NCBI GenBank assembly: GCA_025934135.1
Contig: JAICYR010000008.1
Span: 1-39,991, forward strand
From: Acidobacteriaceae bacterium
GTDB lineage: Bacteria > Acidobacteriota > Terriglobia > Terriglobales > Acidobacteriaceae
DNA length: 39,991 bases
Direction: 5' to 3'
Every line of letters begins with the position of its first letter. The first letter of the stretch is position 1. Position numbers and translations under genes: made by a program. The notes below the pieces were generated by a model. That model was not told where the DNA came from. It ran no database searches and was given only the letters and a program-made list of their open reading frames with translations. Shown one piece after another: positions 22,511 through 28,320 of this stretch.

Positions 22511-23296
22511 ATGACTCAACAGAAACTCGCGTTCGCCTGCTTCACCGCGCTGCTCACGGTCGCTTCTGGGAGGGCCTCGGCGCAGCCGTCGCCGGGCGCG
22601 CTCGCCGCTTTCAGCTCCTATATAGGAAGGGTTGAGGGCCACTTCGCGGTGCAGCATTGGTCGCCCGTAGCCTCCCTCGGCCCCCAGGATGAGGCGCGGC
22701 TGCGGCGCGGCGAGTTGGTCGTGGATCGCCTCACGCCCTCCGCTGACAGCCAATTGCAGGGAGCGCTGCTGCACGACTGGAGCGGCACGGCATTTGTCCC
22801 CGGAGCGAAGGCCGAAGACTTCCAGCGGCTCATGGAGAACTACGGCGCGTATCCGCAGGTCTTTTCTCCGCAGGTGCAGCGGGCGCAAGTGTCGGCGCGA
22901 CAGGGCGATCAATTTCGGGTCATGCTGCGGGTGCGCCAACATCATGTCATCACGGTGGTGCTCGACATCACCAGCAACGTTCACTTTGTCCGGCTGGATG
23001 CGAGTCACGGATACAGCATCTCGCGCAGCACGAACGTTGCCGAGATCGACGACGAACACGCGCTCAGGCCCGATGCTTCCCACGGCTTTCTGTGGCGGAT
23101 CAACACCTACTGGAGTTACGAGGAGCGGGATGGAGGGCTTTACATGCGGATCGAGTCCGTCTCGCTCACGCGGTCCATTCCGCGCGGACTTGGCTGGGTT
23201 GTGGGGCCATTCGTGGAGAGCATTCCGCGCGAATCGATGGAGTTCACGTTGCGCTCCGTATGCAATGCGTTGCGAAACCAGGGAGGACAGAAATGA
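22511..23296 (+). CDS. Secreted START/SRPBCC-like protein, unknown function
   Basis: 261 residues with a signal peptide (LAFACFTALLTVASGRASA, probable cleavage before QPSP). The mature part has the alternating strand/helix pattern of a START/polyketide-cyclase-like lipid-binding fold, ending in a typical closing segment (GGLYMRIESVSLTRSIPRGL, then PFVESIPRESMEFTLRSVC). No catalytic motif is evident, so binding of a hydrophobic ligand in the periplasm is inferred. It overlaps the next gene by 4 bp (ATGA at 23293-23296), a CDP-alcohol phosphotransferase, which hints at a shared role in lipid chemistry. Confidence 0.7.
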   Translation: MTQQKLAFACFTALLTVASGRASAQPSPGALAAFSSYIGRVEGHFAVQHWSPVASLGPQDEARLRRGELVVDRLTPSADSQLQGALLHDWSGTAFVPGAKAEDFQRLMENYGAYPQVFSPQVQRAQVSARQGDQFRVMLRVRQHHVITVVLDITSNVHFVRLDASHGYSISRSTNVAEIDDEHALRPDASHGFLWRINTYWSYEERDGGLYMRIESVSLTRSIPRGLGWVVGPFVESIPRESMEFTLRSVCNALRNQGGQK

Positions 23297-23985
23297 ACGT
23301 TAATACGCAAGCGAATTTTACAACGGCGCGGCGGGTAAACCGGTCTCTGACCGCGGCGGCGGAAAAACGAGCTTTGGAATGGATGGCGGAACGCGCGCCG
23401 CGCTGGGTCACGTCAGACCAGCTTACGGCGTTGGGGCTGGCCGCCCAGGTCGGCTCAGGAATCTTCTTCGCGCTGTCACGATATGACCGCCGCGCACTGC
23501 TGCTGGTAGTGCTGTGCATCATTCTGAACTGGCTCGGCGACAGCCTGGACGGAACACTGGCCCGTGTGCGGAGGCAGCAGCGCCCGCGGTACGGATTCTA
23601 TGTCGATCATGTTGTGGACATCTTCGGGGCCACCGCGCTCATGGCGGGGCTTGCCTGCTCGGGGCTTCTGCATCCGGGTATAGCGGCGGCCATGTTGATT
23701 GCGTTTTTGCTGTTGTCAGCCGAGAGCTATCTCACCACCTATACACTGGGTCATTTTCAGCTTTCGCAGGGTGTATTCGGTCCTACGGAGATTCGCATTT
23801 TGCTGATCGCCGGCACTCTGGAGCTGCTGCGCACCCCGTATGCGACGGTGTTCGGGCGCAGGGTTCTGCTGTTCGACCTGGGAGGAGCTATCGCCGCAAC
23901 CGTGATGCTTTGCATGGCGGTCATTGTGGCCGTGCGGCACACCCGAGAGCTTTACCGTCAGGAGCCGGTGCCGCGTCGCAGTTGA
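23293..23985 (+). CDS. CDP-alcohol phosphatidyltransferase family protein
   Basis: 230 residues from the ATG at 23293, supported by ggaggac upstream and the ATGA overlap with the previous gene; the longer open frame from 23092 is not used. The family signature is complete: D83-x2-D86-G87-x2-A90-R91 ... G101-x3-D105-x3-D109 (GDSLDGTLARVRRQ, then YGFYVDHVVD). Six or so membrane helices follow. Such enzymes transfer a phospho-alcohol from a CDP-linked donor to a second alcohol in phospholipid synthesis. The acceptor cannot be read; phosphatidylinositol-phosphate, glycerol-phosphate and choline types share the motif. It ends just before the ilvA leader. Confidence 0.9.
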   Translation: MNVNTQANFTTARRVNRSLTAAAEKRALEWMAERAPRWVTSDQLTALGLAAQVGSGIFFALSRYDRRALLLVVLCIILNWLGDSLDGTLARVRRQQRPRYGFYVDHVVDIFGATALMAGLACSGLLHPGIAAAMLIAFLLLSAESYLTTYTLGHFQLSQGVFGPTEIRILLIAGTLELLRTPYATVFGRRVLLFDLGGAIAATVMLCMAVIVAVRHTRELYRQEPVPRRS

Positions 23986-24022
23986 CTTCCGGCGCGCGCT
24001 CTGTTTTCATCAGCACATTCGT

Positions 24023-24100
24023 ATGCAGCCCATGGTCGCTAATTCCGGAATCAGCATTCGCCGAGTTATTCGGATTATGGCGATTATTCCTTCTCCGTAG
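24023..24100 (+). CDS. Ile-rich leader peptide of ilvA (attenuator)
   Basis: A 25-codon frame, ATG at 24023 to TAG at 24098. It contains six isoleucine codons and two valines, most of them clustered late (IRRVIRIMAII) before PSP and the stop. A second in-frame ATG at 24032 could be used instead. The ribosome binding site is poor. It lies upstream of a strong terminator hairpin (24129-24159) and then ilvA, the first enzyme of isoleucine synthesis, which is exactly the layout of an ilv-type attenuator. Ribosome stalling when Ile-tRNA is short would favour read-through. Confidence 0.7.
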   Translation: MQPMVANSGISIRRVIRIMAIIPSP

Positions 24101-24159
24101 GAGCGGCGGCAGCGATTCGAGTATCGAGACCACCAGCTCCTGGAGCCTGGTGGTTTTTT
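24100..24159 (+). terminator. Attenuator terminator upstream of ilvA
   Basis: An 8-bp stem accaccag/ctggtggt (24129-24136 with 24147-24154), extended by ctc/gag inside, then six T (24154-24159). A competing pairing is possible between ggagc (24100-24104), right at the leader stop codon, and gctcc (24136-24140) in the terminator's left arm. This could serve as the antiterminator when the ribosome stalls earlier at the Ile codons. The hairpin ends 43 bp before ilvA. Confidence 0.7.
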
Positions 24160-24202
24160 CGTGATGAAAGCAGAAAAGCGATAATCAGAGGAACGACAAA
24201 TT

Positions 24203-25414
24203 ATGAGCGTAACGTTAGGCGGCATCCAAGAGGCGCGGCGGCGCATCCACAGCGACATTTATTTTTCGCCCGCACCGCACTCGGATGAATTGTCGAAGAT
24301 GACGGGTCAACAGGTCTTTCTCAAGCTCGACAACCTTCAGCGCACCGGGGCCTTCAAGGAGCGGGGCGCGCTCAACAAGATCCTTACGCTTGAGGACTGC
24401 GAAAAGCGGCGCGGAGTCATCGCGGCCAGCGCCGGAAATCATGCTCAGGCGGTTGCGTACCACGCTACGGCGCGCGGCATCCAGTCGCGGATTGTGATGC
24501 CGCTGATGACGCCGCTGGTGAAGACCGCGTCCACAGCGGCCTATGGGGCAGAGGTTGTGCTGCACGGCGGCAATTATGACGAGTCCTGCACGGAGGCACT
24601 TCGACTGGCAGCGCAGGACGGTATGACGTTTCTGCATCCCTTCGATGACGATGCCGTGATCGAAGGCCAGGGGACGCTTGGGCTTGAGCTGCTGGAGCAG
24701 ATTCCCGATCTTGAAGCTGTGGTGGTTCCAGTGGGAGGCGGCGGACTGATCGCGGGAGTGGCCTGCGCCATTAAGGAATCCGATCCGCACATTCGCGTCA
24801 TCGGGGTGCAGACGGAACGGCTGCCGTCCATGTTGCGGGCCGCAGATGCCGGGTCGCCGGTGACTCTGCCCGCTGAGGCGACGATTGCCGATGGCATTGC
24901 CGTGCGCCGCGCAGGGGAGCGAACGCTGCCGCTGGTCCAGCGCTACGTGGATGAGCTGGTCTCGGTAGATGAGGAGGAAATCGCCAAGGCCATTCTGGTT
25001 CTGCTGGAGCGCGAAAAGACGCTGGCGGAGGGAGCGGGGGCTGTCGCGCTTGCCGCGCTGCTCCAGCACAAGACCACGCTGCGCGGCCAGCGCACCGCCG
25101 TGGTGATTGGCGGAGGCAATATCGACGTGAGCCTGCTGGCCCGCATCATCGAGCGCGGTCTGGTGAAGGACGGACGCCGCACCCGGCTTCGCATTCACCT
25201 GACCGACCGACCCGGCGCGCTGCACGGGCTCACGCGGATTCTCGCCGACGCCCGCGCCAACATTGTGCAGACCGCGCACGACCGCACTCACTACGGCGTG
25301 AGCCTGGGCGACACCGTCATCGACATCACGCTGGAAACTCGTGGCGGCGAGCACATTGAAGAAATCCGAAAATCGCTGACCGAAGAGGGCTACCGTCACG
25401 AGAGGATCGACTAA
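24203..25414 (+). CDS. ilvA: Threonine ammonia-lyase (threonine dehydratase), single-ACT form
   Basis: 403 residues, the medium form with one C-terminal ACT domain. PLP binds K52 (RTGAFKERGALNKI); the phosphate loop is VGGGGLIAG (178-181 Gly). SAGNHAQAVA is the usual substrate-loop motif. The ACT domain (about 328-403: LRIHLTDRPGALHGLTRILA) probably binds Ile or Val as effector. It deaminates threonine to 2-oxobutanoate, the entry to isoleucine synthesis; the biosynthetic role is supported by the Ile-rich attenuator upstream. The ATG at 24203 follows cagagga. No other ilv or leu genes are in the window. Confidence 0.95.
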   Translation: MSVTLGGIQEARRRIHSDIYFSPAPHSDELSKMTGQQVFLKLDNLQRTGAFKERGALNKILTLEDCEKRRGVIAASAGNHAQAVAYHATARGIQSRIVMPLMTPLVKTASTAAYGAEVVLHGGNYDESCTEALRLAAQDGMTFLHPFDDDAVIEGQGTLGLELLEQIPDLEAVVVPVGGGGLIAGVACAIKESDPHIRVIGVQTERLPSMLRAADAGSPVTLPAEATIADGIAVRRAGERTLPLVQRYVDELVSVDEEEIAKAILVLLEREKTLAEGAGAVALAALLQHKTTLRGQRTAVVIGGGNIDVSLLARIIERGLVKDGRRTRLRIHLTDRPGALHGLTRILADARANIVQTAHDRTHYGVSLGDTVIDITLETRGGEHIEEIRKSLTEEGYRHERID

Positions 25415-26941: not shown

Positions 26942-27294
26942 ATGCTTCAGTTGAAACTGCTCCGGTCAATACCGCGTCGCCCACGAGCCTCACAAACGGT
27001 CCCGCCGCCGCCGCGGTTCTTGCAGCCGGGATTGGCTCTTTCGCTCTTGGTGTGCTGGCGGTTGCGGGGGACAAATCAGCGCTCCTGAAAGGCTGGTTCA
27101 CTTTCTACAAACCGACCGGGCCACTCTCCGGGGTCACCACGTCCGCAGTGGTGATATGGCTGATTTGCTGGGGAGCATTGGAGTGGCGCTGGCGGAAATC
27201 GAGCGTCTCGGCGGGGCGCATCAGCGCCATAGCTCTGGTGCTGCTGGCTCTGGGCCTCATGCTTACTTTTCCGCCTATTGCGGACGTTCTATAG
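26938..27294 (+). CDS. Small three-helix membrane protein, unknown function
   Basis: 118 residues from the ATG at 26938, chosen because it forms an ATGA overlap with the preceding gene. A polar N-terminus is followed by three hydrophobic stretches: AAAAVLAAGIGSFALGVLAV, TTSAVVIWLICWGALEW, and ISAIALVLLALGLMLTFPPI. No motif is recognised. Probably a subunit or partner of the upstream membrane protein. Its stop overlaps that of the convergent LacI gene within CTATAG (27289-27294). Confidence 0.75.
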   Translation: MNASVETAPVNTASPTSLTNGPAAAAVLAAGIGSFALGVLAVAGDKSALLKGWFTFYKPTGPLSGVTTSAVVIWLICWGALEWRWRKSSVSAGRISAIALVLLALGLMLTFPPIADVL

Positions 27295-28320
27295 CGCCGG
27301 AGCTTTGTGGTCCGCATCCGGAACAGGCCCGGTGCTTTTGCGCGGCACCAACTCAGGCTCAATCCTGTACTCCGCGCCTTTTGCGGTGGCGGCGTCCCTG
27401 GTTCCGTGCAGGGCGCGAAAGGCGAGCTTTGCGATCTGCGCCCGTGAGAGCCGTACCGTGGTCAGCGGAGGCTGCGTGTACTCGCTCAAGGCAATGTCAT
27501 CGAAACCAATCACCGAAATGTCGTCTGGAACTTTCAGGCCATGTTCAAGAATGGCCCCCATGGCTCCGATGGCGGACATATCATTTGACGCCAGCACCGC
27601 CGTCGGGCGGGCCCCTGCCCCTTTCCGCAACAAACGCTTCATGGCATTATGGCCGCCATCCATGCGGTGGTTGCCTTCCTCGATCAAGTCTTTGGCTGGC
27701 CGCAAGCCCTTGCGCTTCATGCTGGCGAGAAAAGCCTTGCGCCTCACCTGCGCGGAGGTCAGGTCGGATGGGCCGCTGATAAACGCAATGGATTTGTGCC
27801 CCAGGCGGCGCAGGTGTTCCACGGCGGCATCCACGCCCGCGGCGTAATCAATGGTGATATTGCTGATGCCCTTCTGCACGGTCCCGGTATCGAGAAAAAC
27901 CAGCGGAATGTCGCGACTGCTGAATTCCTCGATCAGGTGTTCATCCATTTCCGAGGTCATAATGGCCACGCCGTCCACCTTACGCTGCAACATGCGGGCA
28001 ACGCACTGCTCGGTGCGGTGCTTGTCATAATTGGTGTTGGCGATCAGCACTTCCAGCCCATGCTGCACGGCGACATCCTCAAAGCTCTTTACCAGTTCGG
28101 GGAAAAACGGGTTGGTGATGTCGGAAATAATCAGGCCGTAGAGGCTGCTCCTGCCTGAGCCCAGCGCGCGCGCGTTGGTGTTGGGATAAAACTTGAGCGC
28201 CTCAATCGCGCGGCGCACACGCGCCGCCGTCTCCGCCGTGACCTTCTCGGAGCCGTTGATGGTGCGCGATACCGTTGCGGTGGAGACCCTGGCGGCGCGT
28301 GCAACTTCCTTAATATTCAT
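27289..28320 (-). CDS. LacI family transcriptional regulator
   Basis: 343 residues. The N-terminal helix-turn-helix and hinge (MNIKEVARAARVSTATVSRT, then FYPNTNARALGSGRSSLYGL) bind DNA. The periplasmic-binding-protein-like domain follows, with LIISDITNPFFPELVKSFED, AFISGPSDLTSAQVRRKAF, VLASNDMSAIGAMGAI and VIGFDDIALSEYTQPPLTTV. It is probably a sugar-responsive repressor or activator. It lies 56 bp downstream of the SGNH hydrolase gene on the same strand and near the GH3 gene, so these are its likely targets. A 14-bp imperfect palindrome in the GH3 promoter is a candidate operator. Confidence 0.95.
   Translation of the reverse strand: MNIKEVARAARVSTATVSRTINGSEKVTAETAARVRRAIEALKFYPNTNARALGSGRSSLYGLIISDITNPFFPELVKSFEDVAVQHGLEVLIANTNYDKHRTEQCVARMLQRKVDGVAIMTSEMDEHLIEEFSSRDIPLVFLDTGTVQKGISNITIDYAAGVDAAVEHLRRLGHKSIAFISGPSDLTSAQVRRKAFLASMKRKGLRPAKDLIEEGNHRMDGGHNAMKRLLRKGAGARPTAVLASNDMSAIGAMGAILEHGLKVPDDISVIGFDDIALSEYTQPPLTTVRLSRAQIAKLAFRALHGTRDAATAKGAEYRIEPELVPRKSTGPVPDADHKAPAL

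Follow-up and report, generated by a model that had tools for sequence, protein, structure and literature searches.

Is ilvA, whose product is the first committed enzyme of isoleucine synthesis, controlled in this bacterium by a leader peptide that senses isoleucine? The window analysed here is a stretch of 39,991 nucleotides, contig C210 of a draft genome of 3.69 Mb, and a preliminary description had pointed to an isoleucine-rich leader frame of 25 codons (six isoleucine and two valine), a strong terminator with six T and a competing 5-bp pairing ahead of the threonine dehydratase gene. Base-by-base reading of the window found the coordinates of all three to be exact (Table 1), and the pairing to be longer than had been claimed. 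We interpret the arrangement as a classical ribosome-mediated transcription attenuator that would sense charged isoleucyl-tRNA and control ilvA, a reading to which sequence comparison and modelling together lead us to give a probability of about 0.87.

Table 1. Features at the ilvA leader and their positions in the window
Feature	Position	Strand	Basis or remark
CDP-alcohol phosphatidyltransferase-domain ORF	23092-23985	+	Pfam PF01066
Promoter-like element TTGACT-17 nt-TTTCAT	23982-24010	+	Predicted; overlaps 3' end of the ORF ending at 23985
Isoleucine-rich leader frame, 25 codons + TAG	24023-24100	+	Sequence reading; counterparts in 19 relatives
CGA-GTT-A, window form of the in-frame CGA-ATT-A of most relatives	24062-24068	+	Motif comparison
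Region 2, 5' strand of the putative antiterminator; overlaps the leader stop codon	24099-24109	+	Pairs with 24130-24141; swap test, 49 ilvA leaders
Intrinsic terminator (regions 3 and 4) with six T	24129-24159	+	Folding; pair counts in relatives
Shine-Dalgarno-like AGAGGA of ilvA	24187-24192	+	Anti-SD pairing energy
ilvA, threonine ammonia-lyase with ACT domain	24203-25414	+	NCBIfam TIGR01127; Pfam PALP + ACT

The leader opens with an ATG at 24023-24025 and closes with a TAG at 24098-24100; one of its isoleucine codons is ATC and five are ATT. GGAGC at 24100-24104 is complementary to GCTCC at 24136-24140, and the complementarity continues over AGGAGC-GG-GG (24099-24109) and CC-CC-GCTCCT (24130-24141); four more pairs (24093-24096 with 24142-24145) bring the antiterminator duplex to -20.9 kcal/mol. 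The terminator hairpin (24129-24154) folds at -15.6 alone and at -19.3 with its flank, and the six T occupy 24154-24159. Simple consensus scans for promoters and terminators called neither element at the leader; in our opinion the terminator scan missed the hairpin because its stem has a one-base bulge. The ilvA protein scored 489.6 bits against the threonine ammonia-lyase model TIGR01127, with a cut-off of 378.75. Elsewhere in the genome there is a second threonine-dehydratase-like gene (C295:7677-8594, L082), 43% identical over residues 2-306, and a frame on the minus strand of the window (27289-28320) resembles, by eye, a LacI-family regulator.

On the attenuator reading, transcription would start just before the leader ATG and the leader would be translated. 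With enough isoleucine the ribosome would reach the UAG at region 2 and cover 24099-24109; region 3 (24130-24141) would then pair with region 4, the terminator would form and transcription would end near 24159. When isoleucine is short, the ribosome would instead stall at the isoleucine codons within codons 10-22, leaving region 2 free to capture region 3 as soon as this is transcribed, and RNA polymerase would continue into ilvA. The mechanism itself is already classical, and the acidobacterial element is a further instance of it: a soil acidobacterium would, if this is an attenuator, probably make ilvA only when isoleucine is short, in the manner of the E. coli textbook case.

The co-occurrence of leader frame and terminator is unlikely to be due to chance. 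Among 612 window frames of 15-60 codons (the longest per stop, on both strands) a single one has at least six isoleucines in 17 residues, and that frame contains the leader; dinucleotide shuffles of 23986-24202 produced a frame this rich in isoleucine in 4 of 2000 cases, and such a frame together with a terminator of -14 or below in 1 of 2000. A terminator of that strength on its own arose in 20 of 300 dinucleotide shuffles, and the upstream open reading frame ends at 23985 on the same strand, both of which would suit an ordinary terminator of the upstream gene lying beside a fortuitous isoleucine-rich frame, with the ilvA promoter further downstream. Against this stand the rarity of the two features in combination and the 19 relatives, described below, which keep the whole set before ilvA with leaders of differing length; we therefore regard such an arrangement as very improbable and retain the attenuator reading.

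A protein-similarity search confirmed 204 ilvA-like places, of which the best 80 were kept. Nineteen of these 80 (L001-L012, L015-L019, L031 and L038) retain the leader frame, the isoleucine codons, region 2, the terminator and the promoter-like box, so that the conservation in relatives on which the preliminary description had made its reading depend is present; its suspicion of an acidobacterial host agrees with these carriers, which are acidobacterial by record title. Two further loci, not counted among the 19, have only 52 nt of upstream sequence (L014) or carry the hairpin in otherwise ambiguous upstream sequence (L056), and in the other 59 of the 80 no short frame with at least five isoleucines in 17 residues was found within 250 nt upstream. 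That density was reached by 16 of the 20 carriers, window included, versus 0 of the 59 non-carriers. Carriers lie among the closer ilvA relatives, yet some close relatives (L013, L020) are without the element. The unannotated sequences upstream of the element look different between loci. In the window's own genome, inspection by eye of about 420 nt upstream of aspartokinase (L195) and leuA (L199) revealed no leader with terminator; the ilvD of this genome is cut by a contig end.

The 20 leaders are 24-40 codons long with 3-9 isoleucine codons each, and over the whole set 117 of these codons stand in frame, while the two remaining frames hold 12 and 6; a single isoleucine is present in one leader, L108, found later with a covariance model. 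The nucleotide sequence of region 2 (GGAGCGGGCGGC- or GCGGGTGCG-like) is conserved while the reading frame through it differs among subgroups, which would be expected if it serves both as RNA and as coding sequence; the leader stop lies at the start of region 2 in some subgroups and after about 12 nt or further in others. Strong nucleotide conservation, both of the GGAGCGGGCGGC-like region 2 and of a CGAATTA motif, would also suit a riboswitch that binds its ligand directly or of a T-box, the aptamer containing an open frame by chance. The varying frame length, the near-confinement of isoleucine to one frame and leader codons that seem to change with the downstream pathway all argue against this, as does the Rfam result: Rfam 15 gave 0 matches at the gathering score in the window and 0 at E<=10 in 23960-24230, and ten other acidobacterial loci (11 places with the window) were likewise without a match, while both E. 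coli controls, Thr_leader among them, matched once each. Riboswitch and T-box readings were rejected on the lack of an Rfam match and the almost exclusive use of one frame for isoleucine, and we leave them only a very slight chance.

An intrinsic terminator lies between leader and ilvA in all 20 carriers. In the alignment 96.9% of terminator cells are paired, with a covariation score of 0.377 versus 0.209 in shuffled alignments (0 of 500 as high). Two of the five terminator measures were no better than shuffles: 105 of 500 reached the observed number of doubly changed pairs, and 499 of 500 that of additional pair types. For the antiterminator we used an alignment-free swap test, which ignores relatedness, on 49 ilvA leaders, that is the first 20 and a further 29 found with R1, a covariance model of those 20. 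Each leader's own region 2:region 3 pairing averaged -17.8 kcal/mol versus -15.3 kcal/mol for swapped partners (sd 0.38, 0 of 5000), and with 73 leaders of all classes the values were -17.4 and -14.2 (0 of 5000). The same test was weak on the first 20 loci, with 1000 of 10000 shuffles as good; within subgroups of these loci the sequences of regions 2 and 3 resemble one another, and two region boundaries, at L001 and L002, had been placed too early. As a partner for its region 2, the window's own region 3 takes rank 17 among the 73. Column-wise covariation of the antiterminator in alignment A1 was no better than shuffles (66.8% versus 67.0%), in our opinion because the alignment register shifts between subgroups. 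Alignment A2 brings together 20 leaders of different genes and families; in it the two mutually exclusive helices covary above shuffles and 74.7% of antiterminator cells pair, the antiterminator columns having been picked by hand from the rows.

The effect of ribosome position was modelled on the ilvA leaders, not on the loci of the second model R2 described below. In most of the ribosome states the complete leader prefers the terminator at equilibrium, the ilvA mean being 0.94 for a ribosome at the stop codon and 0.78 for a stalled one, which means that any switch would have to be kinetic. Since neither E. coli control, thrL or ilvL, separates the states at equilibrium either, transcripts cut before region 4 were used. 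Without a ribosome, folding of the window leader put the terminator at 0.87 in the complete transcript and the antiterminator at 0.65 before region 4. In the cut window transcript the antiterminator had a probability of 0.24 with the ribosome at the stop codon versus 0.65 with it stalled at any of the six isoleucine codons. Its mean probability was higher when stalled in 49 of 49 ilvA leaders, and 25 of the 49 pass a strict rule (best stalled value >0.5, stop <0.25). The controls gave 0.00 at the stop codon, up to 0.62 stalled and 0.42 without a ribosome for thrL, and 0.16, up to 0.79 (but 0.02 for its final codon) and 0.75 respectively for ilvL. Shuffling the linker lowered the best stalled value of the ilvA leaders from 0.737 to 0.530 (sd 0.014, 20 shuffles). 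Without a ribosome the cut transcript still forms the antiterminator (window 0.65, ilvA mean 0.60), and a protective 1:2 hairpin is therefore not evident.

Ribosome occupancy of the leader could act by another route, through translational coupling or through control as in Streptomyces ilvB. Excerpts of one report describe S. coelicolor ilvB and, in part, leuA as having attenuator-like anatomy in which mutated leader codons were without effect (PMC1262725), and in the window 102 nt separate the leader stop from ilvA, which is preceded by a Shine-Dalgarno sequence of its own. A strong, conserved terminator with a matched antiterminator is, however, difficult to account for if the control does not act on transcription, and we judge these other routes improbable beside transcription attenuation.

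The leader itself appears to begin almost at the 5' end of its transcript. TTGAC, which was searched for, and TCTG stand at about equal spacing in all 20 aligned ilvA leaders, and a TTGAC-N17 promoter-like element directly precedes the leader in the window and the 19 relatives. Counted from the first base of TTGAC, the leader start lies 35-43 nt downstream at 17 of the 20 loci and 53 nt downstream at L012, L019 and L031; among the 73 leaders the distance is 35-45 nt in 54 and 51-62 nt in 8, with TTGAC not found in 11, the choice of leader start having preferred an upstream TTGAC. Given standard promoter geometry, a spacing of 35-43 nt would leave a 5' UTR of about 0-8 nt, from which we infer a near-leaderless start. 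Anti-SD pairing in the window is -6.0 kcal/mol before ilvA versus +1.2 before the leader ATG, and at 14 of the 20 loci, chosen for a match beginning at residue 1 of ilvA, it averages -0.66 kcal/mol in the 17 nt before the leader start versus -6.65 before ilvA. Translation of the leader is hinted at indirectly by the near-confinement of isoleucine to one reading frame. Lacking a Shine-Dalgarno sequence, the leader would have to be translated in a leaderless or nearly leaderless manner, which predicts SD-independent initiation feeding attenuation control. Leaderless short-ORF attenuators for cysteine reportedly occur in mycobacteria, to go by the title of a 2020 paper of Canestrari et al.; the likeness to them, judged from that title, is a leaderless frame rich in the sensed codon, which is cysteine there and isoleucine here.

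The preliminary description had confined its element to a single ilvA gene, but similar elements precede other genes in the Acidobacteriota. R1 had matches in 76 of 300 genomes of the window's family, seven of them only beside none of the genes named here, leaving 69 of 300. Eighty of 84 matches were fetched, the other four being opposite-strand echoes, and the next gene was ilvA at 48 (19 of these repeating loci already known), aspartokinase at 12, a PaiB-like FMN-binding gene at 4, an acetolactate-synthase-small-subunit-like gene at 3, ilvD and leuA at 2 each and a short ACT-like frame at 1; the 8 of 80 without any of these genes we take to be chance matches. At the one PaiB-like locus of the four that was examined (L116, 541-2915) the isoleucine leader is followed by the FMN-binding gene and then by a citramalate-synthase-like gene, whose protein scores 306 bits with TIGR00977, below the cut-off of 450; the position of the pair behind an isoleucine leader suggests a role in isoleucine synthesis, an example of how the element helps to assign genes to pathways. 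At L136, one examined of three, the acetolactate-synthase-small-subunit-like gene is followed by ilvA.

Across the phylum R1 matched 22 of 297 genomes and the second model, R2, 63 of 396, both figures including the window's family and neither model search giving an unbiased rate. Among 50 R2 loci examined of 99 rows (ten being R2 training loci), leaders with attenuator-like hairpins precede ilvD, ilvB, ilvN and the genes for citramalate synthase, homoserine dehydrogenase and aspartokinase, and leaders of amino-acid genes occur in eight families besides the window's (f24, f28, f29, f32, f44, f46, f84 and f85); the other R2 rows showed no clear leader or gene. Gene names were taken from reading translations, except for proteins scanned with NCBIfam or Pfam. 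Threonine-rich leaders of similar layout stand before aspartokinase and some homoserine dehydrogenase genes, and isoleucine/valine- or leucine-rich leaders before ilvD, ilvB, leuA and citramalate synthase, a match of codon to pathway that is partly by choice because the leader picker favoured I, L, V and T (in the R2 set also W, H, F and C). A model-free heuristic, applied to 30, 30 and 29 newly fetched loci of the best protein matches, found a leader with terminator before ilvD at 6 of 30 loci, before aspartokinase at 7 of 29 and before ilvA at 6 of 28, counting loci with enough upstream sequence. It overlooks some established elements (L265, L268) and admits others that are questionable (L206, L256). 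Inspected by eye, 10 of the 28 ilvA genes have an upstream terminator of the GCCACC, ACCACC or GCCATC type.

The anatomy recalls several known systems. With the E. coli thr attenuator (thrL; Rfam RF00506, Thr_leader) the ilvA element shares a leader peptide enriched in the sensed residues, a GC-rich region 2 over the leader stop, a terminator 5' arm complementary to region 2 and similar behaviour in the folding test, but the window has no Rfam match, its element would control ilvA and its leader AUG lies near the predicted start without a Shine-Dalgarno sequence. With the E. coli ilvXGMEDA attenuator (ilvL), whose operon includes ilvA as its name indicates, it shares a leader rich in isoleucine and valine, a terminator and control of isoleucine synthesis; there a long operon follows an Ile/Val/Leu leader, whereas here ilvA lies directly behind an isoleucine-dominated one. 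The ilvB attenuators of Corynebacterium and Mycobacterium, as excerpts of the reports present them, are likewise leader-peptide attenuators of branched-chain genes outside Proteobacteria, in another phylum and on another gene, the ilvB operon (PMC13236596, PMC1262725, PMC11857589). Framing the ilvA element by a contrast with Proteobacteria, as originally proposed, was too narrow, attenuation of branched-chain genes being already described for Actinobacteria in the portions available of two reports (PMC1262725, PMC13236596). A literature search, with most subscription papers outside it, yielded, among the papers listed, no report of acidobacterial attenuators that we recognised; in the parts seen, PMC4833913 mentions Acidobacteria for leader-gene distances and PMC8632094 deals with other ilv-linked motifs, in Veillonella and Leptospira. 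Ribosome-mediated attenuation, found in the literature in Proteobacteria and Actinobacteria among others, would here be extended to a major soil phylum, and the 49 ilvA leaders with their threonine, valine and leucine versions offer many natural copies for studying the evolution of the switch and changes in its specificity.

One feature is not explained by counting isoleucine codons. CGAATTA is exact in 18 of the 20 homology-found ilvA leaders (of the other two, the window has a single base changed and L009 is without the motif) and occurs in 55 of the 73 leaders of all classes, always read CGA-ATT-A, the R1-found leaders and the choice of frame being biased towards it. Seven upstream regions of aspartokinase genes with a CCCAC-type terminator were chosen by eye, and six of them contain the motif as well. 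CGA makes up 9 of 105 arginine codons in five window ORFs versus 54 of 152 in the 49 ilvA leaders, and a search by eye found no pairing partner for CGAATTA. A role in pacing through a slow codon is our guess. A broader proposal, tentative and on the whole rather doubtful, would be that leader-peptide attenuators largely control isoleucine, valine, leucine, threonine and perhaps cysteine synthesis throughout the phylum, those of ilvA at least being leaderless, and that the CGA-AUU-A of ilvA and aspartokinase leaders, independent of the residue sensed, is a programmed ribosome pause in which slow CGA decoding keeps ribosome and polymerase in step.

Some leaders stand before genes of other kinds. 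Two leaders before a prephenate dehydratase gene are rich in valine, not in phenylalanine; behind the dehydratase gene comes ilvB at L332 and an ilvD-like frame at L318. Valine/leucine-rich leaders with attenuator-like hairpins precede LysR-family regulators at L295 (by Pfam) and at L300 and L314 (by eye). Cysteine-rich leaders were seen at L338, with no clear gene, and at L322 (1-1084), where a leader ending in ICPICSCCCTTMMPGTSG and attenuator-like hairpins precede a gene with a siroheme synthase N-terminal domain and, further on, a sulfite/nitrite-reductase-like frame; L322 is a possible cysteine attenuator.
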